From contig JAGAUI010000040.1 of assembly GCA_017620815.1 (NCBI GenBank), forward strand, positions 1 through 62,266: 62,266 nucleotides of DNA. The letters run 5' to 3'. The stretch comes from Flavobacteriales bacterium. Its GTDB lineage: Bacteria; Bacteroidota; Bacteroidia; Flavobacteriales; UBA1820. This document shows positions 48-62,266 of this stretch, piece after piece (the first letter of the stretch is position 1; every line of letters begins with the position of its first letter). The translations under genes and the position numbers were made by a program. The notes below the pieces were generated by a model. The model was given only the letters and a program-made list of their open reading frames with translations. It searched no databases and was not told the DNA's origin.

Positions 48-140
48 CCCAATTTTTTGGCAATTTCAGAGGAAATAGAAAAACAACGGAGGTGAATTTT
101 TCTTTGGTTCTTTCTTTTGTTTGGTAGACAAAAGAAAGAA
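48..140 (+). repeat. Dispersed intergenic repeat, copy 1 (93 bases)
   Basis: This stretch matches 3283-3375 in the same orientation and over the same length, with only three base differences that I can see. Its last ~40 bases form a 13-bp perfect stem (TTCTTTCTTTTGT paired with ACAAAAGAAAGAA) around a 7-base loop. Both copies are intergenic and lie upstream of a GGCAG/CTGCC terminator. There is no coding content. It is probably one member of a genome-wide intergenic repeat family, but only two copies fall in this window. Confidence 0.8.
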
Positions 141-174
141 TAAAAAAAAAGGCAGTCCTAGGGCTGCCTTTTTT
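141..174. terminator. Rho-independent terminator after the OstA-like gene
   Basis: A GGCAG/CTGCC stem has an A run on one side and a T run on the other, so it can work in both directions. On the minus strand it lies immediately after the stop codon of the OstA-like gene. Confidence 0.75.
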
Positions 175-175
175 A

Positions 176-2011
176 TCAATAATCTATCTCTAGACGTAAA
201 TCATAAGCATCTTTACCCCATATTTCCTCGGCATTATGAGGTGCTTCATCCATCCGCAAACGGAAGCCTTTGAGTTCACGCATCTCTTCTGGCACACGTG
301 AGAGGTCTGTTATCTGTCCATCGGGGGATTTGATAAAACGTATGCGTTCTACCATAGAACGTCTCATCATGACCATCATTTTGGCCGCTTTGCTTAAATT
401 AAGCCCTATCGGATTTCCATCTCCATCATAGGTGTAATATAACACTTGGGCATTGCCTGTAATAAACACACGTCGCAGGTCATCATCTATCACTTTACCG
501 CGTATGTATTTACCACTTATCTGATTATATTGCAAAGGATTACGAGCATCTTGGCTTATGATAAAAGCATTGGAATAGATAAGTACAGAATCTGTTACTT
601 GCTGTCTTAAATCCTGTTTTACCACTATCGTATCCCCTGTTATCTGATTCTGTTTGGAAAATACCGCAGGCTCTCCATACATAGTCATAACACCTGTATG
701 TTGGTTATATGCTATGGAGTCGATAAAGCCAGACATATCGTGTTTATAGTACCTCACATTGCCAAATGCACGCATAACTCTAGGCATATCTCGCGTGTCT
801 CTATTACTATCACGAGACATAACACCTCTAGCATACCCCTCACCCGAAAAAAACTCATCATCACTCTCCTCTTGCCAAGGAGTAGATATGGTGGTATCTA
901 CCTCTTCTTTGCTATAGACTGGCATTACCTCCTCATTTTCTGTCTCTTCTGTCAATTCTGTTATGAGTCTTTTACGAGCCTCTTTTTTCTCGTCAACAGT
1001 ATCTTTAAGTGGCACCATTTCTATAATATCGGCTCTTAAAAACAGAGTATCTTTTCCAAAGAGAGCCACACGAGGTCTTTCTGGCACCACTGCCGAATCC
1101 AGCATTTCAAAATATTCTGCTACATCTCCTGCTATCATCACTCGGCGGGAAGTGTCGCGTATAAGGACATTTTCTTCGGCTCGTGCATAGCCCGTATGAC
1201 GCTCATAGTGGATTTTATCTCCTGTGAGCATTCTATTGGTTCCGTAATACACACGCGTATTAAACGTAAAATCTGATATTTCGGTCGTAGTATCATACAC
1301 GCCATGTTCTGTATATATACGGTTTTCATTACTCACGATGTATGTAGGGCCTTGGATAGTGATGATTTTGGATACAGTTCCATAATGAAGGGTATCGCCA
1401 TACATCTCAAATTCGTTATTTTTGGCCTCCACATTCATATAAAAATCAACCATATCTTCTGGGACGGTATAGACACCTATACGACTAGAAAGCGTATTCT
1501 GCCCATCTCTTATAGTAGCAAAATGATGATAATATGCCTTCTGGTCTATACGGTCATATTCTAGGGAGTCTGTAGTGAGAAGAGTGGTTTTATTAAGCAA
1601 CTGTACATTACCATATGCCTTGATAAGTTCTTCATCTCCTATATAGTCCATTCTATCACAGTCCAGAGTAAGCGTGTCGCCTTCGTTTACATGTACGCGT
1701 CCCATAGCATAAAAACTATTCTCATTGCGGCGGTAATAGGCACTATCACACATCATATATGTATTCCCATGACGGAAACGCACATCTCCTGTAAGGATTT
1801 GCAAGCCGGGGGCACGATTTTCGTCGTTGGATATACGGTCGGCATTTTCTATCACTATGCGAGTACGATTGATTTTGCTTGCCTTTTTTTCTACACTAGA
1901 AGACACAGTATCTCTTAATACTCCATAGTCCTTACACTGATGTGCATATGCGTATGAAGAAAACATCATCACACACAGCAGACATATATATTTTATGTAT
2001 TTCTCTATCAT
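176..2011 (-). CDS. OstA-like LPS-transport protein (LptA/OstA domain)
   Basis: This 611-residue exported protein has a signal peptide (about residues 1-24, hydrophobic core followed by AYA-H). The next ~270 residues carry repeated short beta motifs such as LTGDVRFRH, MGRVHVNEGD and AYGNVQLL, the pattern of OstA/LptA domains that form a beta-jellyroll slide for lipopolysaccharide. An acidic linker (about 345-395) separates this from a second block of the same motifs (about 405-520). The family in Bacteroidota is annotated as an OstA-like protein thought to take part in LPS transport to the outer membrane; the exact role here is inferred. It is monocistronic, ending at a terminator. The start is supported by the signal peptide. 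Confidence 0.8.
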   Translation of the reverse strand: MIEKYIKYICLLCVMMFSSYAYAHQCKDYGVLRDTVSSSVEKKASKINRTRIVIENADRISNDENRAPGLQILTGDVRFRHGNTYMMCDSAYYRRNENSFYAMGRVHVNEGDTLTLDCDRMDYIGDEELIKAYGNVQLLNKTTLLTTDSLEYDRIDQKAYYHHFATIRDGQNTLSSRIGVYTVPEDMVDFYMNVEAKNNEFEMYGDTLHYGTVSKIITIQGPTYIVSNENRIYTEHGVYDTTTEISDFTFNTRVYYGTNRMLTGDKIHYERHTGYARAEENVLIRDTSRRVMIAGDVAEYFEMLDSAVVPERPRVALFGKDTLFLRADIIEMVPLKDTVDEKKEARKRLITELTEETENEEVMPVYSKEEVDTTISTPWQEESDDEFFSGEGYARGVMSRDSNRDTRDMPRVMRAFGNVRYYKHDMSGFIDSIAYNQHTGVMTMYGEPAVFSKQNQITGDTIVVKQDLRQQVTDSVLIYSNAFIISQDARNPLQYNQISGKYIRGKVIDDDLRRVFITGNAQVLYYTYDGDGNPIGLNLSKAAKMMVMMRRSMVERIRFIKSPDGQITDLSRVPEEMRELKGFRLRMDEAPHNAEEIWGKDAYDLRLEIDY

Positions 2012-3518: not shown

Positions 3519-6398
3519 TCAGTATCCGTATGTTTCACCTTTTTTAACAGCTGGAATACCTTCTTTTATCCACTGTGGAGCTGGTTTACCCTTGAGGAAG
3601 TGGTCAAAGAACTGTTCCAAACGACGTGATAGGTCCATTCTATTACCCCATGATGCAGGGCGTAGGTTATGACTATCACCGTTGTAGTTTATCATCCATA
3701 CTGGTTTACCTAGACGGCGAAGAGCCACAAAATACTCTATACCTTGATACCAAGGCACTGCACCATCGGCATCGTTGTGCATGATAAACAGCGGAGTCTC
3801 TACCTCTGGAGCAAAAAACAGAGGCGAATTCTCTATGTAATGCCATGGGCGTTCCCATAGAGTACCACCTATACGGCTCTGTCCTTTCTCATACTGAATG
3901 TTACGGCTACGTCCACTCTCCCATCTTATACCATCATATGCCGATGTCATATTGGATACAGGAGCTCCTGCTCCCGCCGCTGCAAACATATTGGTACGAG
4001 TTACTAGGTATGCCACTTGATAACCTCCCCAGCTCTGTCCCTGTATGCCTATCGCCTTTGGATTTACATAGCCTTCATCTATAAGAGCCAGTGTGCCGCT
4101 TATGATAGATTTTTCGGCACTACGTCCTGGGTATCCGTCTTTGGCATATTTGATATCTGGGATAAAGATTATGTAGTCATTGGATACAAAGAATGGGAAG
4201 TTCACCGTAGAATAGCTAGGGGCTGGAGTATAGAAACGGTGAAGGTCATCGGTATATGTTTCATAGAAATACACTATGACAGGATATTTGCGTTTTGGGT
4301 CAAATCCTTCTGGTTTATACAGCACACCTACTTGTTTTTCTCCATCACTTGTAGTCCATGAGAATAGCTCTTCGCTACCCCATAGAAGACTATCCATCAC
4401 AGGATTGGCACGAGAGAGGAGTTTTTGGTCGGAAAGGTTTTCAAGTGATGACACTGCTCTTATCTCTGGATAATCTCCAAATGTACAATGACGAATGATG
4501 TATTTTTCGGCCTTTTCGGCTTTAAGAGCAGAATAATAGTATTTAGGTTCCATAACGATAGGTTTTGCTCCCTCTCCACTGCCATATACCATAGAGTAAT
4601 AACCTCCGTCTTTATTTTCTTTATCCAGAGCCGTAAAATACAATTTATCTCCTACCGATATATGACGACGTTCTGGGTCTGGTTCAAAACGAGTCAATTT
4701 CACATATGCGTCTTCAGAACGAGGAGTAAGACGAGTGATATTTTGCGGAACTGTTTTACCTGTAGGGTCTAGCTGCCATACGTTATACTTACCATATACC
4801 AACAGATGTTTATCCCCCGTAGTCCAACCCAATGCTCCGTATTCAGACACCGGATATGCTATATGGTCATCATCTACATTATAAAGCACATCTCCTTCTA
4901 TCCCTGCCGATATGTTTACACGCGTACCTTTCACGCGGTCTATGGCATAGTATGAGCTATCGGCACGGTCAAAATAAGCTATGTATTTGGCATCGGGAGA
5001 GAGCATAGGATAGTGTTCTACATCACTCATAAGCAGAGTGCGTTTTCCTGTCTCTACCTCTACTATGTAGATATCACGGCGTGAAGTACCGTTACGAGAA
5101 TTATCTAGACGATATGGCTTATCGGCAGCTGCTAGAGCATATTTTCCTCGGTTGCGATTAGGGACAGATACTCTTTCCAGATTTTCATCGGCTATCTGTA
5201 CAGCTTTACCAGTCTTGATAGTATATAGACAAGTGTATGTACGCTTCTTTTCACGGTCTTTTTCCAGCAGTTGTTGTGGTTGGAGTACCATATCTGTCCA
5301 TGACCATAGGTCAAAACGTGCTTTTTCCTCTGTAAGCAAAGTATCTTTAGGTGCTTTTTTCTCTTTTTCTCCTATGCCAAAGAACAGTCTTGCTCCATCG
5401 GCAGAAAAGTATGGTGTAGCATTTTCACTTACCACCACCGTACTATCTGGCAAGAGGTGTGAATATGCACCTTTAAGTGTATTGGCTTTTTTATCTTTTA
5501 CAGAAGCATAGTATAGCTCATATGTTTTTATTTTGGCTGTATCTTGAGAGAATAGGAACGCCGCTTGCCCTAAAGAGTCTAGAGCTATCTTGCTAGCTTT
5601 ACCAGTTGCAGAAAGCAAAGTATCTGTTTTAAGACTACGAGTATCAAAACGCAATACTCGGCTGTGTTCTATGCTATCTTTATATAGTTCCACCATTAGG
5701 AAATGAGAACCAGTGATATTGGTTTCATATTCAGTAATAGACTGGAATGTGTATATGCTATCCACTACGGTAGGGTGAGTGATAGATAGTTTTTTACCCT
5801 GTGGTTTTTTCTCTACCGTTTTTTTCTTTTTGGTAGTATCGGTCGCTGCAGTTTCTTTTTTGGGGGCAGGGTTTTCTGCTACTTTTTCGGGGGTTTTTGC
5901 AGGTTTCTTTTTGGCTGTATCCTTTACAGGTTTCTCCTTGTCCCACTGCCATGCCAACCATACGGCTTTGCTACCTTTTTTATAACCCGTTACAGGAGCA
6001 TATTTTGTAGCATCCTTTTCTCCCCATTTTTTTATATAGAGAGTGTCTTTTGGCATATCATCGGCTTTCTTTTTGGCTATTTTCATCTCTCTTGTAACTG
6101 CAAATGGAGCCTTTACTACAGCTACTGCATATGAACCATCATAAGCCATATCTCCACGTGTGGCACGATAGATAGTATCTTGGGCAGCTCCATCGGTAGT
6201 GCCTATTATCATGCGGGCATCACCGCGTTGTGGAGTGAGAGAATAAATAATTTTATTACCATCGGGAGATAGTTTTACCCCCGATATTGCATTCCACGCT
6301 GCATAATCATCGTGGGACATAGGGCGTTTTTCCTGTGCGTATGCCGCAATGCTCACAACACACAGCAACACCCATAATATGTATCTACTATATCTCAT
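3519..6398 (-). CDS. S9-family prolyl oligopeptidase-like peptidase, exported
   Basis: This is a 959-residue secreted serine peptidase. I start it at 6398, where a typical signal peptide begins (MRYSRYILW..., cleavage after AYA); the frame stays open to 6476 but those extra residues are unlike a signal. A beta-propeller-like region precedes the C-terminal alpha/beta-hydrolase domain. The triad is visible: Ser in GQSWGGYQ (~789), Asp in NDADGAVP (~878) and His in GDSHNLRP (~910). S9 enzymes of this size in Bacteroidota are periplasmic or outer-membrane dipeptidyl or acylaminoacyl peptidases. An unusual Lys/Pro/Ala-rich low-complexity stretch (about 155-203) interrupts the propeller. It is monocistronic. 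Confidence 0.9.
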   Translation of the reverse strand: MRYSRYILWVLLCVVSIAAYAQEKRPMSHDDYAAWNAISGVKLSPDGNKIIYSLTPQRGDARMIIGTTDGAAQDTIYRATRGDMAYDGSYAVAVVKAPFAVTREMKIAKKKADDMPKDTLYIKKWGEKDATKYAPVTGYKKGSKAVWLAWQWDKEKPVKDTAKKKPAKTPEKVAENPAPKKETAATDTTKKKKTVEKKPQGKKLSITHPTVVDSIYTFQSITEYETNITGSHFLMVELYKDSIEHSRVLRFDTRSLKTDTLLSATGKASKIALDSLGQAAFLFSQDTAKIKTYELYYASVKDKKANTLKGAYSHLLPDSTVVVSENATPYFSADGARLFFGIGEKEKKAPKDTLLTEEKARFDLWSWTDMVLQPQQLLEKDREKKRTYTCLYTIKTGKAVQIADENLERVSVPNRNRGKYALAAADKPYRLDNSRNGTSRRDIYIVEVETGKRTLLMSDVEHYPMLSPDAKYIAYFDRADSSYYAIDRVKGTRVNISAGIEGDVLYNVDDDHIAYPVSEYGALGWTTGDKHLLVYGKYNVWQLDPTGKTVPQNITRLTPRSEDAYVKLTRFEPDPERRHISVGDKLYFTALDKENKDGGYYSMVYGSGEGAKPIVMEPKYYYSALKAEKAEKYIIRHCTFGDYPEIRAVSSLENLSDQKLLSRANPVMDSLLWGSEELFSWTTSDGEKQVGVLYKPEGFDPKRKYPVIVYFYETYTDDLHRFYTPAPSYSTVNFPFFVSNDYIIFIPDIKYAKDGYPGRSAEKSIISGTLALIDEGYVNPKAIGIQGQSWGGYQVAYLVTRTNMFAAAGAGAPVSNMTSAYDGIRWESGRSRNIQYEKGQSRIGGTLWERPWHYIENSPLFFAPEVETPLFIMHNDADGAVPWYQGIEYFVALRRLGKPVWMINYNGDSHNLRPASWGNRMDLSRRLEQFFDHFLKGKPAPQWIKEGIPAVKKGETYGY

Positions 6399-7214: not shown

Positions 7215-8501
7215 TCAATAATCATATTTATCCCCCCAACGACTCTTAAGGTATCTTCTTAATGCCTCTTCTCGGTCGTTTTCTTTGGGAGAGTAGTATC
7301 TGGTTCCTTTTAACTCATCTGGCATATACTCTTGACGAGCAAACGAACCCTCTATATCGTGGGGATAGATGTATTCTGTCCCATAATTAAGTTCCTTCAT
7401 AAGAGCGGTAGGAGCATTCCTCAAGTGCAATGGCACTGGCAGGTCTCCCAAACGTCTCACATCATTCTGAGCATCATTTATAGCCATATATGCAGCATTG
7501 CTTTTGGGAGAAGAAGCAAGATATGTAACACACTGTGCTAGTATGATACGGCTTTCGGGATAACCTACTACGCTTACGGCTTGGAAAGTATTGTTGGCCA
7601 TGATAAGAGCTGTAGGATTGGCATTTCCTATGTCTTCGCTTGCAGCTATCACGAGTCTTCGTGCGATGAATTTGAGGTCTTCTCCTCCCTCTATCATTCT
7701 TGCCAACCAATAAACTGCCGCATTTGGGTCGCTACCTCTTATAGATTTTATAAAAGCCGATATGATATCATAATGTTGCTCTCCTGTTTTATCATAACGA
7801 GCCAAATTCTGCTGTATGCGAGCGTTGACCATATCGTCTGTTATGACTATCTCATCACTATCTACGCTCTCCACCACTATCTCTAGAGCTCCCAAAAGTT
7901 TACGGGCGTCCCCTCCCGATGTACGCAATAGAGCATCGGTCTGTTTAAGTGTTATCTTTTTTGTTTTAAGATATTGGTCTTTTGTTATGGCATTATTAAG
8001 GATTTTAAGCAGAGATTCTCGCGTATGAGCTTTAAGCACATACACTTGGCATCGCGAAAGAAGTGCTGGTATCACTTCAAAGCTAGGATTTTCTGTCGTT
8101 GCTCCCACCAGCGTGATTTTACCTTTCTCTACCGCCGAAAGCAGTGAATCTTGTTGGGATTTGGAGAAACGGTGTATCTCGTCTATAAAAAGTATAGGTT
8201 TCCCTCCCGAAAACAGATGTGAAGATTCGCTTTCAGCACGAGATATAACATCTCGCACATCTTTCACCCCAGCATTGATAGCCGATAGGCTATAAAAAGG
8301 GCGTTTTATCTCTTGGGAGAGGATATGAGCCAATGTTGTCTTTCCACTACCCGGAGGCCCCCAAAATATCATAGATGGTATATAACCAGAGGCTATCACA
8401 CGCCGCAAAGGAGTACCCTCTCCCACTATTTCACTATGGGAAACATACTCCTCAAACGTACTGGGACGCATTCTCTCGGCAAGTGGTGTAGATATGTCCA
8501 T
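7215..8501 (-). CDS. rarA: Replication-associated recombination protein A (AAA ATPase)
   Basis: This 428-residue RarA/MgsA-family ATPase has Walker A GPPGSGKTT (48-56) and Walker B FIDEIHRF (about 105-112). Family hallmarks are sensor-1 GATTENPS and a C-terminal tetramerisation region (HLRNAPT, YIYPHD). RarA acts at stalled replication forks and interacts with single-stranded DNA-binding protein. Length is normal for the family. It is first in a two-gene unit with the tatD-like gene and is divergent from aroB, with the promoters back to back. Confidence 0.95.
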   Translation of the reverse strand: MDISTPLAERMRPSTFEEYVSHSEIVGEGTPLRRVIASGYIPSMIFWGPPGSGKTTLAHILSQEIKRPFYSLSAINAGVKDVRDVISRAESESSHLFSGGKPILFIDEIHRFSKSQQDSLLSAVEKGKITLVGATTENPSFEVIPALLSRCQVYVLKAHTRESLLKILNNAITKDQYLKTKKITLKQTDALLRTSGGDARKLLGALEIVVESVDSDEIVITDDMVNARIQQNLARYDKTGEQHYDIISAFIKSIRGSDPNAAVYWLARMIEGGEDLKFIARRLVIAASEDIGNANPTALIMANNTFQAVSVVGYPESRIILAQCVTYLASSPKSNAAYMAINDAQNDVRRLGDLPVPLHLRNAPTALMKELNYGTEYIYPHDIEGSFARQEYMPDELKGTRYYSPKENDREEALRRYLKSRWGDKYDY

Positions 8502-50847: not shown

Positions 50848-53800
50848 CTACTGAGCTTGCCACTGGGCATAGAGAGTAATATCTTCTGATATATTCATCA
50901 CTTGACCATTTACATAGTTTGTTCCTTTTCCGTCTGCTCTAGAGTTCCAGCCTATAAAATCATAGAAATTGCGTATAGGAGTAGTAGGGAACACCAGCGA
51001 ACTATTGGTAGTAGTAACAATTCTCTGAATAGCGGTAGGCTGACCTTCTACTGTCGCATCGGCAGCATTTGCATTAAATGTTACAACCTGATGCTTTACT
51101 TGTCCACCAATGAGTTCTACGGTACCGCCTTCATTGGTAACGTCGCTATTTGGTATATAGTTTGATACGCTATTATTTATGATTTTTCCTCCATTTATAG
51201 TTATTTTGGCATTGGAACCTATGGCATATAGTCCACCACCATATCTCACAGCAGTATTGGATGCAATACTAGGATTATCTACACTGCTAGAACCATCTTT
51301 ACCTATCTTAACATTGGCTGTTCTACTAGTGGTAGCCATATCCACACATATACCTCCGCCATTGACATCACAAGCATTATTCTCTATCTTTCCAGAGAGC
51401 ACATGTACATTCACATCACTAGTTGTGGACATAACATATATACCGCCCCCACTTCCTCCTCCATCTGTTGCTGTTTTAAGAGCTACATTTCTATATATGT
51501 TACATGTTCCATCTTCTGGCATATAGAAGTCTCCTGCCTTGATATACACACCACCACCATTACCATCTTTGGCGAGGTTACTTTTTATATTTCCTCCATG
51601 TAGGGTAACTGTTCCTCCTTCTAGATAAACAGCTCCGCCATTGGTATATGAGGTATTGTTAAGTATTTCTCCTCCTTTCATTATAAATTCTGGAGATTCA
51701 ATACCCTTTATATATACCGCTCCACCTTCATCTGCCACACAATTTTTTATAGTACCACCTGTCATGGTAAAAGTACCATTTTCCATATAGACAGCACCAC
51801 CTTTATGCTCTATGTGTTCATATTCCTTGTCATACACATCACTATTGCCAATGGAGCCTCCACTCATAGTAAATACAGACTTTTCTGTCGAACCAGCAGC
51901 CATTACAAACTGTGCCGATATATCTCCATCATACACTTTAATCACCGCACGACCTATATGTCCTGTTGCACTATTGGTTTTACCACCACCTATGGAACCA
52001 GTACGGATTATAGGTTTATTTCCAGAAAGGCTAGATATGGTAACTTCGGCATTTCCTCCTATCTTGCCACCATCTGAACCTCCTGTTCCTCCACCTATAC
52101 CACATCCAGCAGGGAAAGCACTAGTAGATACGCTCTTGGCTCTTATGTATCCACCCGATATATCAACTACAGCCATACCTCCATCTTTGGTTTTACTACT
52201 ACCACCACCTATAGCTGTACCCATAGCTGCTTGGGCATAGACATATCCTCCGCTTATCTTTATAGTACCCAATGTTCCAGTCGAACTAGATGAACCTCCA
52301 CCGCCTATGGCAGCACTAGGGATATTCCACTCGTTGGCAAAATTATATGCATAAACATTACCTCCATTCACTTCTACATATCCTTCTCCTCCAGCAGAGT
52401 GAAAACCTATACCACCACCTATGGCTGTACCAGTAGTAGTGGCAACAGCAGTAACAGAACCTCCGTTTATAATAATAGAAGCCTTACCATTACCTCCACC
52501 GCCTATAGCTGTGCAGTTTTCGGCAGCAGTAGTTCCAGCATACACGACTCCGCTATTTATCACGATACCCAATGCAGATTGTGAGCTATCATCGGCACCT
52601 ATAGCAGCACACCAGTGGTTTGAGGAATAACCTACCGTATTTACACCTATACTCTTACTTTCATTAAAAGGCGAACGCGATTTATCAAAATCTGCATCGG
52701 CAACAGTAATAGAGCCTGTACCACCTATTATGAGTTGAGTATTGGAAGTATTATTGAAATAATGTATCGCACCAAATCTACTATCTCCTATCATAGTGAT
52801 ATTCAAGCTACTACCCGCCATAGCTGGAAGGAATGTTATACCTCCCGTTTTACGACTTTCAGACGCATGTTGATATGACGAATAAAGATTATCAATCACC
52901 ATATTACATATGATAGGATTTGCAGCATCGCCCTTTACATCTATACGATTTTTGGTACTACTTCTTCCCACTTTTCTCACTGCTCCTGTCAATCCTGTAG
53001 GGTCTGCACCGGGTGTGGCATCTACAGTGAGCCCTTCTTTTGAGTCCCACATTTCTATTACGTCTTCTACCACGGTGTTATTGGTAATGTAATCACTCCA
53101 AAAACGGTCATCAACCATAACTGGAGAATATACCGGACGAGTTATAGCCCCCACACCTAGTGTAGCAGCATAGCCCGTTTCACCTTTATTGGCCGCAGTA
53201 GATTGATAGACATAATAATGATAATTCTCTTGGTCGCCCACTGGGAATTCCTTATAGACACGGGTTGCAACACCATTTACATATACATAACCTTCATAAG
53301 AAGTAGGTGTGATTGTTACATTTCCCGCATGTAAGTCAAAATAAACATAGTCCTCGGTTATAGTCTTGTTTATGGTATAAGTTATGAGTTTACCTGCCTC
53401 CCACTTGAAATCCTTAAGAGATGCAGTGATAACTCCTGCAACACCACCTTCGGTGTATTCCATGACAACTTCGGCACTTGATGGGAGGGTCTGTGGAATC
53501 ATCATAAGAGTATTGACACCCGTAGTTATCATATCACCAGCAGAACAATCTATTCCAACCGATGGTATAGGGAGAGTATAGTTAACAGGTAATGATTGGT
53601 CGTCCCATGAGTCTCCCATGCTATATACACCCTTGCTGTTTACGTTGTTTATCTTAATTGACGTGACCTTACATTCAAATCCAGCCTTGAATCTTACACC
53701 TGTAAGTATATGGTTAAAAGTCAAAAAAACGTTCTGGTTATAATCCCCACTTACTTCTTTAGTATCTGTTGATAATAGGTCTATCTGTTTGGTTACATCC

Positions 53801-54336
53801 TGTGGAACCACATATGTGATAGTAGGAACATTATCTACTACCGATAACGCAAAATCACTTGTCGATGTTGTAACCATAGGTGCATATGTGTATATACGCA
53901 AACTATTGACATCATCAATATCACTCCATAAAACAGGGTCATCTACTGGATTTAAGTCTTCGTTATTATCAAATGAGTAATAATAGTTACTCATCACATC
54001 GGCAACTTTTGTATCTCCACTATATTCATATGCATACACCCCTACGTCCATCCCTTCCAATTCTGTAACAGGAAGACCTCGTGTAGGTCTAGATGACTCT
54101 CGCAACTCAAGATTCCACTCCTCTTCTGCTATACCTAGATATGAAGAAGTAGCACTTCTTGCCACTTTAGGGGCAGCAGTAGCATCGGCTTGGAGGGAGG
54201 CTGTAAAAGATATGACATCACTGCGGTGTACCTTACCTGCTTCGGGGTCCAAATCCTTACTACATGCCAATGTCATACATATACCGGCTATCGCCAGAAA
54301 ATAAAATATGCTTTTTTTATATCTTTTCATTTTCAT
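50848..54336 (-). CDS. Fimbrillin-like lipoprotein with beta-helix-like repeats and InlB repeat (candidate tip adhesin)
   Basis: This 1162-residue lipoprotein (LACSK, Cys25) is last in the fimbrial operon. Residues ~35-330 follow the fimbrillin pattern (FLTFNHILTGVRFKAGF; SSAEVVMEYTEGG; AGKLITYTI). Residues ~460-790 hold Gly-rich units with AIGGGG/GIGGG motifs (e.g. 577, 609, 638, 676, 708, 746, 781). Residues ~845-1040 hold units with GGAVY, GGGVY, GGGIY or GGGLY followed by TMTGGTI or similar, resembling Chlamydia Pmp-type beta-helix repeats. Residues ~1083-1160 form an InlB B/Listeria-Bacteroides repeat (FYDFIGWNSRADGKG, LYAQW). Tip adhesin is an inference from size, position and repeats. 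A second Met (54330) may be the start. Confidence 0.85.
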   Translation of the reverse strand: MKMKRYKKSIFYFLAIAGICMTLACSKDLDPEAGKVHRSDVISFTASLQADATAAPKVARSATSSYLGIAEEEWNLELRESSRPTRGLPVTELEGMDVGVYAYEYSGDTKVADVMSNYYYSFDNNEDLNPVDDPVLWSDIDDVNSLRIYTYAPMVTTSTSDFALSVVDNVPTITYVVPQDVTKQIDLLSTDTKEVSGDYNQNVFLTFNHILTGVRFKAGFECKVTSIKINNVNSKGVYSMGDSWDDQSLPVNYTLPIPSVGIDCSAGDMITTGVNTLMMIPQTLPSSAEVVMEYTEGGVAGVITASLKDFKWEAGKLITYTINKTITEDYVYFDLHAGNVTITPTSYEGYVYVNGVATRVYKEFPVGDQENYHYYVYQSTAANKGETGYAATLGVGAITRPVYSPVMVDDRFWSDYITNNTVVEDVIEMWDSKEGLTVDATPGADPTGLTGAVRKVGRSSTKNRIDVKGDAANPIICNMVIDNLYSSYQHASESRKTGGITFLPAMAGSSLNITMIGDSRFGAIHYFNNTSNTQLIIGGTGSITVADADFDKSRSPFNESKSIGVNTVGYSSNHWCAAIGADDSSQSALGIVINSGVVYAGTTAAENCTAIGGGGNGKASIIINGGSVTAVATTTGTAIGGGIGFHSAGGEGYVEVNGGNVYAYNFANEWNIPSAAIGGGGSSSSTGTLGTIKISGGYVYAQAAMGTAIGGGSSKTKDGGMAVVDISGGYIRAKSVSTSAFPAGCGIGGGTGGSDGGKIGGNAEVTISSLSGNKPIIRTGSIGGGKTNSATGHIGRAVIKVYDGDISAQFVMAAGSTEKSVFTMSGGSIGNSDVYDKEYEHIEHKGGAVYMENGTFTMTGGTIKNCVADEGGAVYIKGIESPEFIMKGGEILNNTSYTNGGAVYLEGGTVTLHGGNIKSNLAKDGNGGGVYIKAGDFYMPEDGTCNIYRNVALKTATDGGGSGGGIYVMSTTSDVNVHVLSGKIENNACDVNGGGICVDMATTSRTANVKIGKDGSSSVDNPSIASNTAVRYGGGLYAIGSNAKITINGGKIINNSVSNYIPNSDVTNEGGTVELIGGQVKHQVVTFNANAADATVEGQPTAIQRIVTTTNSSLVFPTTPIRNFYDFIGWNSRADGKGTNYVNGQVMNISEDITLYAQWQAQ

Positions 54337-54343
54337 AGTCTCA

Positions 54344-55306
54344 TCAGTTTAATTCTATATTTTCTTCATTCCATGGCACCAATGAACATTTGGCATCTAT
54401 GTTATTAAAGGAATTAAAATATAGATTTATTATATATATTTTACCTGCCGCATCTGCATCTGATGCAACTGGTGTTCCAGCCTCGTCCTCCAATATGACA
54501 TCCACATCTCTCACATATGATTTTTCAGACTCCACTATGATATTATACTTTTTAGCGGGAGCACATAAAACCTGACCTTTTTCTTGGGCAATGATATCCA
54601 AATCCATAGGCGTATCCATCACCACTAGCGGAGCCTCTACTCCAGAATAGGTAACAGCACTACTAGATAGGTCTATGCTTATCTTATCACTAGGATTGGT
54701 AACTGTTATTTTTTTTATCTTACCCCAAGAATCTCCCGCATCAAAAGATGTAGAACGAACGATTATTTTAAGCAATGTAAGTTTATGTTTATATACTTGT
54801 TCTGGAATAGGGGTTTGCCATGAACCATTTTGCTGGTTGGCATACATCAAGTCTGTAATTCCATCTATCTCATGTGATACCGATTTATTATCTCCCGATA
54901 GCTCCCAACCTGTAGGTGGATATAAACCCACACAATATACCATAGTATTATCGGTAGGGTAGGTAAGTGGGAATTGCTTTCCTACTGGGTCTTTATATAC
55001 TGTAGCCATACCGTCACTAGCATATTCTACTTGGGCATGGTATGGGATATATGTAGGGGCTGCTGGAGATGGGTTATCCTCATAGACTCCATCTACGGTA
55101 GAAAACCATACACTCGTCTTAAGACCAGATGATGAGTCGAAATATGGAGAAGCAGCAACAGACTTGGTAGAGACAGCTGTGGATGCTTCAACAGTAGCTT
55201 TAAGCCGTATATCCCTAGTTTCATTGCTCATATTCTCTTTGGAACAAGAAAAAAACAGGAGTATTATAGGTAAAAAACATATATAATTTTTCATCATCTT
55301 ATTCAC
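54344..55306 (-). CDS. Fimbrillin-like lipoprotein
   Basis: This 320-residue lipoprotein (LFFSC, Cys21 from the first Met) is of the fimbrillin/Mfa-like family. The arrangement is typical: FPLTYPTDNTMVYCVGLYPPTGWELSGDNKSV, YKHKLTLLKIIV and AGKIYIINLYFNSF. The conserved pattern of a hydrophobic HxLT-type strand after a central Tyr-Pro segment is visible. It is probably a minor pilus component between stalk and tip. It follows the previous gene after 2 bases. Confidence 0.82.
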   Translation of the reverse strand: MNKMMKNYICFLPIILLFFSCSKENMSNETRDIRLKATVEASTAVSTKSVAASPYFDSSSGLKTSVWFSTVDGVYEDNPSPAAPTYIPYHAQVEYASDGMATVYKDPVGKQFPLTYPTDNTMVYCVGLYPPTGWELSGDNKSVSHEIDGITDLMYANQQNGSWQTPIPEQVYKHKLTLLKIIVRSTSFDAGDSWGKIKKITVTNPSDKISIDLSSSAVTYSGVEAPLVVMDTPMDLDIIAQEKGQVLCAPAKKYNIIVESEKSYVRDVDVILEDEAGTPVASDADAAGKIYIINLYFNSFNNIDAKCSLVPWNEENIELN

Positions 55307-55308
55307 AT

Positions 55309-56358
55309 TTATTCATTAAATGAAATATCTCCAAACCCTCCCAATGTCCAGTCTTGAACCTTGGAGGATACAACTATAGTGTTACCCATCTTAAATGTAA
55401 GATTGAGTGTAAAGTATTTGCCTCTAGTGCTACCTATATAATACCCTCCACTATTTTCGTTTATCTTTAAATCTATAGGTACAGATACCTTACGACGGGC
55501 AGTCTCTATATGCAGAGTGTATTCGGCTGTAGGCACATCGTTGCCATCTACGACCTGTGATGCCGATGCTGTCACAGGAGAACATAGGACATATGCTACT
55601 TCTTGGGGAGATGTGACAGCTGGTTTATATGGCATAGTATATCCTCCTGCAGGAGGGAACACATTATCACTACCAGTAGCATATAGAGAAAATAATCCAT
55701 CACCTGCATCGGTATAATCAACACAAGTTTCATAGACATAATCCTTACTCAAATCCACCGTAACATGATTTTTGCTTGTGATTTTCATACTCTGTATATC
55801 ACCCCACGCCTTCATTGTAAGTTCGTCATCGGCTATTATTTTTATTTTGAGCCATGTGAGCAGGTGTTTGAATCCTAGCACAGGGGAATTTTCATAAAGC
55901 TGAGCATAGGCCCCCGATATCTGTGGAGCAAACATCACATCATCATTCCCATCAAATGTAAATTCGGCTTTATTTCCTTCTGCATTAACATCCCATGTAG
56001 AGATAGGATAAAACCCTACAAAATACACTGTACTAGCATTTTTGGGATAAACGGCTTGGCTTAAAAGCTGAGGCTTACTACTCTCAAATCTCGCACTTGT
56101 GTGGATAGCTACGCTACCATCTCCCTGTTTACCATTATACCCCAAATTTTTATACTGACGGTCTATAGATGAAGCCCATATAGCCGCATGTAGAACAGCA
56201 TCCTGTGTGGGTGAGGTATAGATGTATGGAGATTTGGTATTTTTTGAACTCTCTACGGCAGCCGAAAGATATATACTATCACTAGAGTCCCCCTCCGAAC
56301 TCTTATGACAGGAGGTAAATAATACAATTGCCCAAATTAAATATATTAACTTTCTCAT
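55309..56358 (-). CDS. Fimbrillin-like lipoprotein
   Basis: This 349-residue lipoprotein (LFTSC, Cys17) starts at the ATG at 56358; the frame is open to 56385. The mature protein has SIYLSAAVESSKNTKSPY, TVYFVGFYPISTWDV and FKHLLTWLKIKI, matching its neighbour gene strand for strand, so the two are paralogues. The order GFYPIS-FKHLLTWLKIK-PVTA-GKYFTLNLTF is the same in both. It is likely a minor pilin. Confidence 0.82.
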   Translation of the reverse strand: MRKLIYLIWAIVLFTSCHKSSEGDSSDSIYLSAAVESSKNTKSPYIYTSPTQDAVLHAAIWASSIDRQYKNLGYNGKQGDGSVAIHTSARFESSKPQLLSQAVYPKNASTVYFVGFYPISTWDVNAEGNKAEFTFDGNDDVMFAPQISGAYAQLYENSPVLGFKHLLTWLKIKIIADDELTMKAWGDIQSMKITSKNHVTVDLSKDYVYETCVDYTDAGDGLFSLYATGSDNVFPPAGGYTMPYKPAVTSPQEVAYVLCSPVTASASQVVDGNDVPTAEYTLHIETARRKVSVPIDLKINENSGGYYIGSTRGKYFTLNLTFKMGNTIVVSSKVQDWTLGGFGDISFNE

Positions 56359-56359
56359 A

Positions 56360-57412
56360 TTACTGCACTTGATAATCATTTTCATATCCTGAATCTTCGC
56401 CCTTTTCCCACTGCTCTACGTTAACCTTAAAGAGAATTTCTTCCTTGTTATCTCCCAGATTAAGCGAATAAACATACTTCATTGCTGGTTGCCACACATT
56501 TACAGCAGGTGTAGATATAGGGATTTCAGAAGATGTTTTGGTAATACCGTCCCAAGTATAATTTACAACTAGTTTAATAGATGACAAATCCTGTGGGATA
56601 ACCATCATATAACTCGTTGTTATATCCCTATCAAAGTTTATATCTTCTGGCACTATCTTGTCTATATTTATTCTAAATGTAGATGGAGATGATGTAGGAG
56701 TCCATTTTTCATATGTGAGATTGTCTTGATTTACAGGATAGCTTACATAAGTATCTGCTGCATTGACATAAGTAGCACTATTGTGTATTCCTAGTAGCGA
56801 TATATAATTTATCCTCAAATCACGATGTGACTGTTGCAACTTGAATTTTATCACAGAAAAAGGATGAACAAATTTAAGGGCTACCGTTGCATTGTCATTG
56901 TTAAGATTACGTCTAAGAGCATATATGAATTCACGTTTGGATGCTTCTCTTATGGCATCGTCAGCGGTAATATCATCTATAACATCGGGCAATGTGCAGT
57001 TTATAGTAACTCCCGATGCCGATGAAAAAGACACATCTGAACTGCTTACCACCGTTTTATTCAAATCACGAGGCATATATGCCATAAAATTCAGTTTCCT
57101 GTCATTAGGCCAATAGTAATCTATAAGATTATTTTGGTTTACCACATCACGGAACCTCCAGTTTCCATTAAAGTAATAAACCCATACATCTTTCATGTAT
57201 GGTGTATCGGCTCCGTCTGTAAGATAAGAATTTATGGTGAACTCTTCTTCTGCCACCATATCGTCTTCATTTTCTATAATAGTAGCCTTGGATGTAACAG
57301 ATGAACTTACCACGTCTATGAGGATTTTGTCCTTACTGCCCATCCCCCCATCTTGTGAGCAAGCTACACAAGAGAAGGCTACACATATCATATATAGTAA
57401 TCTTTTGACCAT
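56360..57412 (-). CDS. Fimbrillin-like lipoprotein
   Basis: This 350-residue lipoprotein (SCVAC, Cys18) starts at the ATG at 57412 (MVKRLLYM). Typical features are YYWPNDRKLNFMAYMPRDL, ALKFVHPFSVIKFKL and MVIPQDLSSIKLVVNYTWD, close to those of major fimbrillin families with the W-P-x-x-K-x-FxAYxP motif. It is separated from the next gene by 1 base. Likely a minor subunit of the pilus. Confidence 0.82.
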   Translation of the reverse strand: MVKRLLYMICVAFSCVACSQDGGMGSKDKILIDVVSSSVTSKATIIENEDDMVAEEEFTINSYLTDGADTPYMKDVWVYYFNGNWRFRDVVNQNNLIDYYWPNDRKLNFMAYMPRDLNKTVVSSSDVSFSSASGVTINCTLPDVIDDITADDAIREASKREFIYALRRNLNNDNATVALKFVHPFSVIKFKLQQSHRDLRINYISLLGIHNSATYVNAADTYVSYPVNQDNLTYEKWTPTSSPSTFRINIDKIVPEDINFDRDITTSYMMVIPQDLSSIKLVVNYTWDGITKTSSEIPISTPAVNVWQPAMKYVYSLNLGDNKEEILFKVNVEQWEKGEDSGYENDYQVQ

Positions 57413-57422
57413 ATCTATACTT

Positions 57423-58547
57423 TTAATCATCTACCAGACCATTTATGACTATCTCATCTCCTTCTTCCCCTCCCTTCCAAGAGGTAATTCCCACCTGAAG
57501 ACTGAAGCTCTTAACTCCCAAAGACAGATTCATAGAATATGCCTTTCCTCCCTGTAGATTTACATTTACAGTGCAATATCCTCGGTTGGTATATGTGAGA
57601 TATGTATGGTCGTTTTTATCATATAATTCTACTTCATACTCCATATATATGTTAAACCCAGTAGAAAGAAAATCCTGTGGGAGAAGCATGAGGTAAGAAT
57701 CTGGAGCATTGAGTTGTTTTGGGGTGTCGGTATTGGTATTATCTAGCAGGAATCCAGACGCATCTCCCCCTGCAAAATTCCTATAATCAAGCGTAAATTT
57801 CTGTGCACCCGACATATCACTCCATGAGGCCTGTGGGTCTGCACCCTGATTACCTATATCAAGTGTTCCTTGAGTGTAGAAAGTCCCCGTTCCACTACCT
57901 GTTTTATCACTAGAAGAAGTAAACACTACCTTTTTCACTCTTATGGATATCTCTTTATTCATAGGAGATATACCGTCGGTAGAGGCTTTTACTGTTATTC
58001 CCACTCTAGAGAGGGCATGACGGAAGACAAATCCTATCTTACCCATAGGCGGCATATAGGTCTTGTCGGTAGTAACAGCATAACTCCACAGCATATCCAC
58101 TTGTTTTTTCACATCGCTGTTTACCACGTGTCTTAATTTCAACGTGTTTATATCAACCGATGCGTCATGAGGAGCATATGCAAAAAAACTTATCTTTTCA
58201 CCCTGTTTATGTGGCCAATACTTCACAGGAGAATACGTCCAGTTGAGCCCTCCATCACTAGATGTCACGCGGGAATTATTGATAAAATTGGGGACTGCCT
58301 TTCCCGTGTATGCATTCCAATTTACGTCTTTTGTATAATATGCCAGCACTCCAAAACCCTGTTTACACAACTCGCTGTTATCCACGACTACAGCTTTTGA
58401 TTGGGCGAGATTATCCCAAGCATCGGCACTTTTCATAGAGAACGATACCACATCATCTTGTGGCATATCTGCCTTTTCTCCTTTGGAACAAGAAGAGAAG
58501 AACATATAGAGTAATACAATCGTAATATATATGGAGTATCTTGCCAT
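57423..58547 (-). CDS. Fimbrillin-like lipoprotein
   Basis: This 374-residue lipoprotein (FFSSC, Cys20) starts at the ATG at 58547; the frame is open to 58604. It has NGEK-type motif YWPHKQGEKISFFAYAPHD, GFVFRHALSRVGITVKA and LMLLPQDFLSTGFNIYMEYE, the fimbrillin pattern shared with the gene upstream (YWPTTKGEKISFWAYAPYA). It is therefore a paralogue of the candidate stalk subunit. A hairpin-bearing 110-base gap separates the two. Confidence 0.85.
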   Translation of the reverse strand: MARYSIYITIVLLYMFFSSCSKGEKADMPQDDVVSFSMKSADAWDNLAQSKAVVVDNSELCKQGFGVLAYYTKDVNWNAYTGKAVPNFINNSRVTSSDGGLNWTYSPVKYWPHKQGEKISFFAYAPHDASVDINTLKLRHVVNSDVKKQVDMLWSYAVTTDKTYMPPMGKIGFVFRHALSRVGITVKASTDGISPMNKEISIRVKKVVFTSSSDKTGSGTGTFYTQGTLDIGNQGADPQASWSDMSGAQKFTLDYRNFAGGDASGFLLDNTNTDTPKQLNAPDSYLMLLPQDFLSTGFNIYMEYEVELYDKNDHTYLTYTNRGYCTVNVNLQGGKAYSMNLSLGVKSFSLQVGITSWKGGEEGDEIVINGLVDD

Positions 58548-58560
58548 TTTTTCTATTTTA

Positions 58561-58620
58561 TGAGTGTGAGATTTTTTCTCACCGTTGTGGTCGGGAAGAG
58601 ACATTCAACCCTACCCGACC
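58561..58620 (-). promoter_or_regulatory. Hairpins between first and second fimbrillin genes
   Basis: Within the 110-base gap, GTGAGA/TCTCAC (58565-58581) and GGTCGGG/CCCGACC (58589-58620) can form stems. Neither has a clear T run on the minus strand. They may reduce read-through or stabilise the 3' end of the upstream mRNA, giving more of the first fimbrillin. This is an inference. Confidence 0.35.
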
Positions 58621-58657: not shown

Positions 58658-59773
58658 TTATTTGTCTACATCATTCCAGTCCACATCATCATCTTCTCCT
58701 TCTTCAGTACCCCATCCTTCTACGCTTGCAGAAAGAACGATTTCATTGGTGTAGAATGTAAGAGTGTAGAGATATGCTTTACCCTGTTTAAGAGTACTTG
58801 CTGGCAGGTCTATTTCTTTTGTTGCAGAAGACACAGAATATCCTGCATTAAGAGAAGCATCAACAGTTACTATATCATACTCTATCTCAAGTTTGATTTT
58901 TCCAGCTGCAGTAGTACCTGTTTCACCGCCAGAAGGGATAAGGAATAGATATTTATTTGCCCCGAAAAGAGGAACGGCAGTAGCATCCTGAAGGCGAACA
59001 CCGGCTTCTGTATAACCACCTAGGCTAGTTGTTTCTTTTGCCATAAGAGGGTCTATAACAATATCTGCTTTTGTATCTAGAGTCCAAGAGCCACGAGCAT
59101 CATCTGCATTTGCAAATGTATATGTACCCACTGTTGCCAAATCATCACCCTTAAATGTTATAGACTTGATATTTACTTTGGTTTCAGTAGCTACAGCTTT
59201 GTCAAGTTTTGCTTTGATATTAACACGAGTAAGTTCGTGGCGTAACGTAAACTCAACACTACGAGTATTACCGTCAGGGTTGGTAGTAGCAGATTTTACT
59301 TCATTCATAAGTGTTGCAGCAGTAAAGTCTTCTGCAGACTCTATGTTACTTATGGTATAAGTAATCTGTGGTAGTCCTGTAGATGTCTTGGTAGATTTAA
59401 CTGCTATTGCCTTACCAGAAGCATATGGAGCATATGCCCAGAAAGAGATTTTTTCGCCTTTTGTTGTAGGCCAATACTTTTTAGGAGTATAATCCCAGCT
59501 TCCCGCGGTTTTGGTTACCTTCTGGTTAAACATAAAGTTAAATCCTGATGCATTTGTCCAGTCTTCACTCTTGGTGTAAGAGGCAAACACACCAAAATCT
59601 ACAAGATTAGCATCATCTAGGACTGCTGCACGAGACTGAACATCACGTCCTAGGTAAGTAGAGAATCCTACTACATCACTAGCAGGGACTTCGCTTTTTG
59701 AGCTATCCTTTGCACAGCTTACCATAAAGACAGCTGCACATGCCATAAATCCATAAATTAGATTTTTTTTCAT
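58658..59773 (-). CDS. Fimbrillin-like lipoprotein (candidate major stalk subunit)
   Basis: This 371-residue lipoprotein (FMVSC, Cys20) is first of the fimbrillin genes. It has the motifs VVGFSTYLGRDVQSRAAVLD, YWPTTKGEKISFWAYAPYA, VEFTLRHELTRVNIKAKLD, YLFLIPSGGE and LKQGKAYLYTLTFYTNEI. The family's type V pilins are exported as lipoproteins and polymerise by donor-strand exchange after proteolytic removal of an N-terminal strand; an Arg (SRAAV, ~46-50) lies near the N-terminus and could be a processing site, but that is inferred. A stalk role is inferred from being first, with a following hairpin. Confidence 0.85.
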   Translation of the reverse strand: MKKNLIYGFMACAAVFMVSCAKDSSKSEVPASDVVGFSTYLGRDVQSRAAVLDDANLVDFGVFASYTKSEDWTNASGFNFMFNQKVTKTAGSWDYTPKKYWPTTKGEKISFWAYAPYASGKAIAVKSTKTSTGLPQITYTISNIESAEDFTAATLMNEVKSATTNPDGNTRSVEFTLRHELTRVNIKAKLDKAVATETKVNIKSITFKGDDLATVGTYTFANADDARGSWTLDTKADIVIDPLMAKETTSLGGYTEAGVRLQDATAVPLFGANKYLFLIPSGGETGTTAAGKIKLEIEYDIVTVDASLNAGYSVSSATKEIDLPASTLKQGKAYLYTLTFYTNEIVLSASVEGWGTEEGEDDDVDWNDVDK

Positions 59774-59823: not shown

Positions 59824-60861
59824 TTATAGTTCAAAATCCAAATTTTCTTCATCTCCCCAATCTTCTACCCAAGCATCAAATCCGTCATTACCTCCTCCCT
59901 CTGGTTTAACGTCTGGCAGAGGGTCTTTTCCCCATAGTTCTATCTCACACTCTAGGGTTAGTTTTCCTGTTTCATCACTCTTAAACTGGAATTTATCTCC
60001 CACTTCATATGAGAAATCAATTATCGTCTTGTTATCCACCAACAGTACAGATAGATTGAAATTATTTTCATCGGCTAGTGCCTTATGGTCACGAGGCAGT
60101 CCAAAACTAGTGATAGCTGTCTCTATATAACCTAGTGTAGGGTCTGTTTTATCTACCACGAGTCTCCAGTTTTCCATCAGATGAGTGACCTTACTTTCTG
60201 TTCTATTTCCAGTAGAAAACATAAAACCTTCTGCCATACCATCTAGAGAAGCACGGGCACTTTTAAGGTTGTACACATTTTTAAGGTGTACCTTGACTTT
60301 TATAGTGTAGATGATATTTTCAGGATAATGTCGTGCCACTATGAAATCTGATGCTATATCACGAGTATTCATATTGGCAAGTTTATTCTCTCCTGTGATT
60401 TTCACCATTTCATCGGTAATCTCTATATCTTCTACACGGTGAGTTCCTATCCATTCTGGTGATGCTGCCAATTTTTCTTTTTCGGCACGTGTCTTATACC
60501 ATCGTGAAGCTACTGGAGTAGCATTGACCTGTGCCGTAGAATATCTATCCATATTTACAAAATCCACAGTACCATATTCCGATGGACTCTGGTTAAATAC
60601 AAACGAATTGTAATACCCTGCCAAAAGGTCAACTATCACATAAGAGAGGTTATTGGTCTGTTTTTCTATCTCTTTTACACCTGCTCTGGAATACACCATA
60701 ACAGTCATTCCACTAGGATTATCCTTTTCAAATCTAGACCAATCTACATTTATCTGCACAGACGCAGTATGTGGATGGTGATAGCACAGTTCCTTGTGAG
60801 AACAAGAGGAAACTATAAGTAGTACAAGCAGAACATTTACTATCCTTCTTACCATCTCCAC
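59824..60861 (-). CDS. DUF5119-like lipoprotein of fimbrial loci
   Basis: This 345-residue lipoprotein (VSSC, Cys20) begins SHKELCYHHPHTASVQINVDW, the opening typical of DUF5119 proteins found beside fimbrillin genes in Bacteroidales. It has regions VYSRAGVKEIEKQ and YYNSFVFNQSPSEYGTVDF, and LEC-type C-terminal strands. Such proteins are thought to be FimB/Mfa2-like anchors or assembly factors, but the role is not established. Its start overlaps the DUF3575 gene's stop by 13 bases, so they are translated together. Confidence 0.78.
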   Translation of the reverse strand: MEMVRRIVNVLLVLLIVSSCSHKELCYHHPHTASVQINVDWSRFEKDNPSGMTVMVYSRAGVKEIEKQTNNLSYVIVDLLAGYYNSFVFNQSPSEYGTVDFVNMDRYSTAQVNATPVASRWYKTRAEKEKLAASPEWIGTHRVEDIEITDEMVKITGENKLANMNTRDIASDFIVARHYPENIIYTIKVKVHLKNVYNLKSARASLDGMAEGFMFSTGNRTESKVTHLMENWRLVVDKTDPTLGYIETAITSFGLPRDHKALADENNFNLSVLLVDNKTIIDFSYEVGDKFQFKSDETGKLTLECEIELWGKDPLPDVKPEGGGNDGFDAWVEDWGDEENLDFEL

Positions 60862-62093
60862 CCTCCTTTATCCTTATTCTCGTTTCCTCTACCTACTTGC
60901 CATACCAGAGATATCTCGGCCTTGGTAGGGCCTATCCAACTACGTTGTTTCGTTGCCTGCCATACATAACAGTTGTCTATAGGTATATACTCCTTGTATT
61001 CACCCCATAGGTAACCCAATCCCAACGTGAAATCTATGTTCAATCTACGTCCTATAGGATGGGAATATCCATATGACAATCCCGCTGCATAACTCCACTT
61101 ATCTCCCAAATATCCTCTGCCTCCTAGTTCAAAGTCATAGGTTACCATCTGGGCATATGGACCTATATGATGCCCTGTAAGGGGTTTCTCTTTGGATTTC
61201 TTGCCAAACCATTTGCGTATCTCTACATCTCCTCCATAGGTACGCCACCATACATGAGATGGGTCAACATCCCACCACGCATAATGCCAGTACGCCGCCA
61301 TTGACCAATTCTTTCCTAGATACATATCTACTCCCACATTGGGAACTAAGAGTGCATCATAAAGCATATTGGTACGGATGGACATAAAGAATTTATAGTC
61401 TCGACTCTTCTCTTCGGGGCGTAGAAAAACATCGGGATAGTCCTTGCGGGGAGATAGAGTTGCTATTCCCGAAGTATTGTATAGTTCGGGGATACCTATC
61501 ATATCATACCACAAGTATAGTTTGGATGCTCGCAAGGCTGGGAACATCTTCTCATACATATACTTATATGGCTTTCCTCCCCTCAATGTAGATATCATAC
61601 TCATATGGGGAAATGTGGTATTTCCCGACTCTACTTCATTTGCTATCTTATGAAGGGCAGCAAGTGTCTCATTCTTATATGGAACATTTGGGTCTTCCTC
61701 TACCATCAATATAAGGGTACGCCAGTCCCTACCCACCGGAGTTATCTTCCTCATACTATCGGGCAAATCCTCATGGCGGTCTATGTAGTTAAACAGGACA
61801 TTGGCTCGTTTATATGAAAGACGATTATTGAGATATACAGTACCTTCGGGAGAGGCCGCTCCTACTATTTCTATCCTATTAAGTCTATATGAATTACCAG
61901 CACGACGGTCACGTACGGCTTCTATTATTGAACGCAACGAAGACGCATTTTCTCTATATGATGTATCCAGAATAGAATATCCCTGACGGAAATGAACCTT
62001 CACAGAATCTTTTTTAACCTGTGCTATGATGTCATTTCCAAACAGCAACTGTATCATTACACCTAAGTATAGAATATATTTACTATACCTCAT
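60849..62093 (-). CDS. DUF3575 protein with OmpA-like domain, head of fimbrial operon
   Basis: This 414-residue exported protein is first in the operon. I start at the ATG at 62093; a TTG at 62099 lies 2 codons further up. A signal peptide (cleavage near IIA-Q) is followed by an OmpA-like region (about 35-165; IEIVGAASPEGTVYLNNRLSYKRA). A beta-barrel-like C-terminal half follows (SIRTNMLYDALLVPNVGVDMYLGKNWS, GRRLNIDFTLGLGYLWGEY) as in DUF3575. Proteins of this type head many FimA-like clusters in Bacteroidales. Outer-membrane location is inferred. A poly-G tract lies 70 bases upstream. Confidence 0.85.
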   Translation of the reverse strand: MRYSKYILYLGVMIQLLFGNDIIAQVKKDSVKVHFRQGYSILDTSYRENASSLRSIIEAVRDRRAGNSYRLNRIEIVGAASPEGTVYLNNRLSYKRANVLFNYIDRHEDLPDSMRKITPVGRDWRTLILMVEEDPNVPYKNETLAALHKIANEVESGNTTFPHMSMISTLRGGKPYKYMYEKMFPALRASKLYLWYDMIGIPELYNTSGIATLSPRKDYPDVFLRPEEKSRDYKFFMSIRTNMLYDALLVPNVGVDMYLGKNWSMAAYWHYAWWDVDPSHVWWRTYGGDVEIRKWFGKKSKEKPLTGHHIGPYAQMVTYDFELGGRGYLGDKWSYAAGLSYGYSHPIGRRLNIDFTLGLGYLWGEYKEYIPIDNCYVWQATKQRSWIGPTKAEISLVWQVGRGNENKDKGGWRW

Positions 62094-62133
62094 AGACAAC
62101 GTATTTTTTGTTTGGCGAATTATATTGAGGGTT

Positions 62134-62178
62134 TAAAAATACACATAAAGTTTATTAACCCGCCCCCCCCCCCGCAAT
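62134..62178 (-). promoter_or_regulatory. Candidate fimbrial operon promoter region with poly-G tract
   Basis: No perfect TAnnTTTG is present. Two partial matches are TATTTTTA (62134-62141, 7 of 8) and AAACTTTA (62146-62153, 6 of 8). In the second case ATTG (62175-62178) lies 21 bases upstream as a possible -33, with the 11-G tract inside the spacer. In the first, the tract occupies the -33 position itself. Either geometry would make promoter strength depend on tract length. The promoter is not proven. Confidence 0.4.
62163..62173. repeat. Mononucleotide tract, 11 C (G on minus strand)
   Basis: Eleven consecutive C residues lie 70-80 bases upstream of the DUF3575 start. They are the longest G/C homopolymer I see in the window. 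Such tracts slip during replication and are frequent switch points for phase variation. Sequencing error in the exact length is possible. Confidence 0.9.
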
Positions 62179-62266
62179 TTTAACATTTCATTTATTAAAA
62201 ATTATCATATTTTTATCATTAGCTCCTTTAATTTATTATTACCATAAAAAAAACGCCTGCAATGCA

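Follow-up and report, generated by a model that had tools for sequence, protein, structure and literature searches.

A poly-G tract before a type V pilus operon as a candidate length-variable promoter switch in a genus of Flavobacteriales

Introduction

Why should eleven consecutive guanines stand shortly before the first gene of a surface-pilus operon, and does their number matter? Slipped-strand mispairing makes uninterrupted stretches of 8-12 Gs inherently unstable, and a run of this kind in a promoter raises the question of whether it serves as a switch, as a fixed part of the promoter, or as nothing at all. In this article, I will discuss such a tract in the window, i.e., the whole 62,266-nt stretch of Flavobacteriales DNA that was analyzed, which is contig C15 of a 1.73 Mb genome in 42 contigs (G000). 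Background counts were made over approximately 480 kb of this genome, and some tests used 640-650 kb of two genomes, the second being that of its sister species (G001). The tract probably serves the pilus-operon promoter as a contingency element of variable length, working either on/off or as a dimmer, since the same run is found with other lengths in the sister species and in a second variant within the assembly.

The tract, the pilus operon and the promoter

Read from the window sequence, the tract is a minus-strand G11 at 62163-62173 that lies 69 nt from the first ATG of gene 1 (at 62093), and no other G run in the window reaches a length of 8. Leaving the tract aside, the DNA from this ATG to the contig end has a GC content of 25%, and both the eleven minus-strand Gs shortly before gene 1 and the very AT-rich surroundings described in the original prediction are thus as stated. 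The contig, and with it the window, ends 93 nt upstream of the tract. The tract is flanked on one side by gene 1 and on the other by the 3' half of an intrinsic terminator (62246-62266, minus strand) of the upstream lptF/lptG-like gene, the hairpin of which is completed on contig C5 (AAAACGCCTGCATTGCAGGCGTTTTTTTT), where the upstream neighbor is a gene for an LptF/LptG-family permease. An Rfam search of the window returned two tRNAs and nothing else.

Behind the tract lie eight genes, all on the minus strand. Gene 1 (60849-62093; the open reading frame as listed begins at a TTG at 62099) encodes a protein whose C-terminal half carries DUF3575 (PF12099) and whose presumed location is the outer membrane, and gene 2 (59824-60861) a DUF5119 lipoprotein-like protein (PF17145, Pfam). 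According to Pfam, Mfa_like_1 fimbrillin-like pilins are encoded by genes 3 (58658-59773), 4 (57423-58604) and 5 (56360-57430), and Mfa_like_1 fimbrillin-like proteins by genes 6 (55309-56385) and 7 (54344-55306), while gene 8 (50848-54336) encodes a 1162-aa protein with a C-terminal Listeria-Bacteroides repeat that may be the tip adhesin. The five Mfa_like_1 proteins above the curated Pfam cut-off all belong to this one operon and have the DUF3575 and DUF5119 proteins as partners; because these occur together with the Listeria-Bacteroides-repeat protein, the eight genes fit a type V (Mfa-like) pilus operon, and the eight-gene surface-pilus operon first proposed from the letters stands. A search of viral contigs found none encoding a relative of gene 1, and a search of such contigs for the same promoter gave two matches, each in unrelated sequence.

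To read the promoter, it helps to consider its class. Over 650 kb of the two genomes, TTG is preferentially placed 19-21 nt from TAnnTTTG sites upstream of genes, and TTG-N19-21-TAnnTTTG is the main promoter class in both, in agreement with the published Bacteroides -33/-7 promoter (PMC7366714, PMC12632263). In the pilus promoter, the conserved -7 element is TATTTTTA (62141-62134, minus strand), one base off consensus, and the sister species has in its place TACATTTG, a perfect TAnnTTTG; in both species it lies 21 nt downstream of the tract, and the stretch between them (62142-62162, minus strand) aligns without gaps, which supports the location of the promoter that had been presumed. Since the -33 position falls inside the end of the tract, which covers it and extends upstream, and the closest upstream TTG (62177-62175) is 33 nt from TATTTTTA, the tract appears to replace the -33 element. 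Of the two placements originally offered, the one over the -33 position is therefore retained, and the one in the spacer between -33 and -7 is not; nor is the arithmetic that went with it (a 21-base spacer, brought to 19-20 by the loss of one or two Gs) supported, as the conserved -7 puts the tract outside the spacer.

Long G runs and a shared upstream box

The tract is beyond chance. In the 480 kb of G000, counts of G/C runs shrink by a constant factor of approximately 0.19 with each further base as far as length 6 and then show a surplus at lengths 9-12 over this decay, and it is this clear genome-wide excess of runs of at least 9 Gs that allows a chance run to be set aside. The whole 1.73 Mb genome holds seven of them. 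Three precede surface-related genes, namely the pilus tract on C15, a G12 on C2 before a polysaccharide operon (a glycosyltransferase-4 gene, a NusG/UpxY-like gene, then rml-type sugar genes) and a G9 at C8:60263 before a gene for a TolB/6-bladed-propeller-like lipoprotein, the Pfam match of which is slightly under the curated cut-off. The other four adjoin terminators (C8:65959, C26:2331, C39:4910 and C41:8582), and since poly-G stands beside terminators in these genomes too, some G runs must arise without a promoter role. Terminator-adjoining G9-G10 runs are also seen in the sister species (G001 C95:11426 and C121:86093). Proximity to a contig end is not relied on here, with 3/7 promoter tracts and 0/8 others within 100 nt of one (p = 0.08).

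The surface-gene tracts have a further feature in common. The motif TGTTAA is found at most 30 nt upstream of all six that have enough upstream sequence (in the copy on C5, discussed below, it reads TGTTTAA), vs none of the other eight runs of at least 9 Gs that were examined, and the probability of meeting it by chance is approximately 0.6% per tract by sampled average, a value that is truly higher, yet small, given the greater A and T content of intergenic DNA. In the window, this box is ATGTTAAA (AAATGAAATGTTAAAATTGC; 62179-62186, minus strand), an upstream element common to the poly-G promoters. Conversely, among the 42 ATGTTAAA sites in 650 kb, six are followed within 40 nt by at least 9 consecutive Gs, together representing five distinct tracts, vs approximately 0.02 expected by simple arithmetic, and both species carry two copies of TGTTAAA, repeated with a period of 11 nt, in the lipoprotein promoter.

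The sister species and a second haplotype

The whole pilus operon is present in G001 in the same gene order, with 65% identity between the gene 1 proteins, and the tract is kept before the orthologous gene. The G001 pilus contig starts as AAAATTGC-G9-TGGCCTAAAATTCTTTATATG-TACATTTG, where the window has AAAATTGC-G11-CGGGTTAATAAACTTTATGTG-TATTTTTA, and the sole indel over approximately 40 nt is the length of the tract. Another G001 contig ends inside an lptF/lptG-like gene, consistent with the same order of lptF/lptG-like gene and pilus operon in both species. The polysaccharide-operon tract is G12 in G000 and G10 in G001, and the lipoprotein-gene tract is G9 and G11, respectively, 24 nt from TATATTTG in both; in all three orthologous promoter pairs the tract thus differs by two Gs, this is the only indel near the promoter, and the adjoining flanks are free of gaps. 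Promoter tracts are kept in the sister in 3/3 cases, vs 0/3 for the terminator-linked tracts on C26, C39 and C41, which are absent at the sister's orthologous sites (C8:65959, where the sister contig ends in rplS, was left out). An additional G001 tract precedes the gene for a large adhesin-like protein, so that within the genus similar tracts do occur in the promoters of other surface genes, i.e., polysaccharide, lipoprotein and adhesin-like.

The genus was sampled with four genomes, and G002 and G003 have no close match to the gene 1, polysaccharide or lipoprotein proteins, so that the conservation described here is that of one species pair. In the relatives RGIG7679 and SIG161, which have DUF3575 proteins, the site lacks a long G run. 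Across approximately 300 genomes of the order, matches to the tract-plus-(-7) pattern outside the genus were about as frequent as those to a reversed-pattern control, vs 12 raw matches (four promoters) forward and none for the control in the sister genome; the spacer-type pattern gave 13 forward and 8 reversed matches order-wide outside the genus, and those inspected were dismissed as mostly chance-like, many of them apparently inside or beside housekeeping genes. Since outside matches equal the control or look like chance, the promoter set seems, within the genomes examined, to be confined to this genus.

A third length comes from within the assembly. The end of contig C5 (34766-34895) overlaps the window end over 130 nt, with the same terminator, flanks and -7, and the terminator stem sequence is found only at these two ends. 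The C5 copy carries G8 and three substitutions relative to the window, one of which alters the box (ATGTTTAAA); one locus in one assembly therefore has two tract lengths, linked to three substitutions, and I take C5 and the window to be two haplotypes of different tract length in one population, as judged from their overlap. The comparison of tract lengths proposed with the original prediction thus gives G9 vs G11 between species and G8 vs G11 between contigs, and overall the tract length differs among relatives with stable flanks at the pilus operon (G11/G9/G8), the polysaccharide operon (12/10) and the lipoprotein gene (9/11).

Several observations were made alongside. An intergenic, inverted-repeat-rich and dispersed repeat of approximately 140 bp (AAAGAGCCGAGACTTTGCTTTGCACAGCAAAGC...) lies at window positions 1-141 and, whole or in part, at the ends of contigs C1, C6, C14, C18, C20, C21, C23, C24, C31, C32, C33 and C42, and probably breaks the assembly. 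A TGTAACCTTTGCAGGGAAGCCCTGCCGCTGGTTTTAAAA element that separates atpA from a gene for a surface lipoprotein is conserved in both species (L129, approximately 4080-4125; L122, approximately 7990-8040), and a second conserved motif, AAACCTTTTGCCAC...GTCTAATGTATAAA, resembling an ECF-sigma promoter, lies upstream of the lipoprotein poly-G promoter (L010, approximately 4290-4370, minus strand; L019, approximately 1320-1400, plus strand), which suggests that the lipoprotein gene may have two promoters in series. A further G9 (L023, 4779-4787; G001:C133:16778) stands close to the 3' end of what looks like a short regulator-like frame, just before a putative CPBP/CAAX-protease-like gene, and a change in its length would alter the end of that frame.

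How a switch would work, and what else the tract could be

Slipped-strand mispairing would add or remove Gs, and because the tract stands in for the usual -33 element, each change in their number would shift the distance and the helical face between the A/T-rich ATGTTAAA box, which may be a contact for the polymerase alpha subunit or the site of a regulator, and the -7 element. Pilus transcription would then go up or down with tract length, and lengths would switch back and forth within a lineage. Related poly-G promoters would drive the polysaccharide (capsule/O-antigen-type) operon, the surface lipoprotein gene and the sister's adhesin-like protein, and a small set of poly-G promoter switches in the genus is likely on this comparison of sequences. 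Slippage would not be boosted by loss of mismatch repair, a cause that is ruled out because each of the four genomes of the genus has MutS1 and MutL.

The same tract could be functional and yet fixed, as a spacer or as a protein or G-rich structural site that is kept by selection while its length drifts slowly between species or strains, and I regard this as unlikely while recognizing what speaks for it: the position and flanks are conserved, the mismatch repair genes are present, and G8 and G11 are tied to other substitutions in the manner of separate strains, so that C5 and C15 may represent two strains of fixed length each, or in part a homopolymer sequencing error at low coverage. A fixed part sits poorly, however, with the inherent instability of pure runs of 8-12 Gs and with three out of three orthologous pairs in which flanks without gaps surround an indel of two bases that is confined to the tract. 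It is very improbable that the difference between C5 and C15 is simply an artifact of assembly or sequencing and that the promoter is regulated in another way, for example by a regulator alone. Both variants do lie at contig ends, where coverage is lowest, and their overlap is irregular while other contig ends overlap by exactly 141 nt, but the sister species provides an independent difference in length. As for regulation by inversion, a single inverted repeat spans the promoter, an 11-bp pair (TGTTTGGCGAA/TTCGCCAAACA) 400 nt apart (window 62109-62119, minus strand, and the C5 end), with one arm within the lptF-like gene and the other absent from the sister's 5' leader; the pair is judged to be chance, and an invertible promoter was rejected, in line with the initial remark that no inverted repeats flank the region.

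That the run is a functionless, neutral homopolymer expansion in non-coding DNA must be considered when four of the seven long runs here and two in the sister adjoin terminators with no evident promoter role, yet the retention of promoter runs in the sister (against the loss of every testable terminator-linked one), their shared TGTTAA box and their position before surface genes make this reading scarcely credible. Scarcer still is the chance of an exact porA-type switch as initially drawn, in which a TTG and a -7 element some 20 nt downstream enclose the tract as spacer. The window contig does contain TTG-C-G11-CGGGTTAA-TAAACTTT with a 20-nt spacer; however, TAAACTTT is a poor -7 (4/6 fixed bases) and the pairing is without counterpart in the sister, which has the perfect TACATTTG 21 nt after the tract. 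The spacer architecture itself is genuine in other sister promoters, where the tract lies between -33 and -7 at G001:C17:29-59 and G001:C17:8652-8684: the polysaccharide promoter, TTTG-GAAAATTC-G10-TAG-TACTTTTG, has it in a 21-nt spacer, and the adhesin promoter, TTTG-AAATTC-G10-TAG-TATATTTG, in a 19-nt spacer. The -33 and -7 of the G000 polysaccharide promoter are weak, which, like the departure of the pilus -7 from consensus, counts against a length switch.

Relation to known switches

Homopolymer promoter switches are known from Neisseria, Treponema, Bordetella and Helicobacter (PMC7864442, PMC3639595, PMC1891110, PMC4081817). In Helicobacter pylori, the length of a T tract rotates UP-like elements with respect to the core promoter of the adhesin gene sabA and so acts as a rheostat (PMC4081817), and the pilus promoter is alike in that a homopolymer separates the core promoter from an A/T-rich region upstream; the sabA promoter, however, has a T tract and a sigma-70 -35/-10 and is backed by experiment, whereas here a G tract is combined with a Bacteroidota -33/-7 that is known from sequence. 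Similarly, the fim2, fim3 and fimX promoters of Bordetella pertussis carry a C-stretch between the activator region and the -10 (PMC1891110), although these are BvgA-dependent and belong to unrelated pili and another sigma factor. The order of parts in sabA, opc and fim (upstream element, tract, core promoter) is also that of the pilus promoter, the comparison being one of order, with a putative role for the box. Treponema pallidum resembles the present genus in having several poly-G tracts before outer-membrane protein genes (tprE/G/J, tprL and tp0126), with 7-11 Gs at tprL and placements both near the start and in the spacer (tp0126), but its promoters are of another class and the effect of the tract was measured there (PMC7864442). 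In Neisseria meningitidis, poly-G lies in the spacer of porA and poly-C over the -35 of opc (PMC7864442; porA also PMC3639595), and the pilus promoter, with its tract over the -33 zone, is opc-like, while the sister's polysaccharide and adhesin promoters are porA-like; the spacer is 17 nt in Neisseria vs 19-21 nt in Bacteroidota -33/-7 promoters. The invertible promoters of Bacteroidales act on the same kinds of targets, NusG/UpxY-like polysaccharide operons and type V pili, but do so through site-specific DNA inversion (PMC12632263), and here there is no plausible invertible segment. A literature search of incomplete coverage turned up no description of Bacteroidota promoters that switch through a homopolymer.

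Discussion

The probable length switch before the pilus operon leads to a broader proposal, toward which I lean only slightly: in this genus with genomes of approximately 1.7 Mb, the combination of a ATGTTAAA box, a slippery G8-G12 and a TAnnTTTG -7 may form a dispersed set of length switches for pili, polysaccharide, lipoproteins and adhesins, doing what DNA inversion does in relatives. Surface phase variation in Bacteroidales has so far been described as DNA inversion. If the proposal is true, there would be a second, recombinase-independent route that uses the phylum's own -33/-7 promoters and acts on pili, polysaccharide and lipoprotein genes, and it would leave a read-level signature that could be counted in existing metagenomes.
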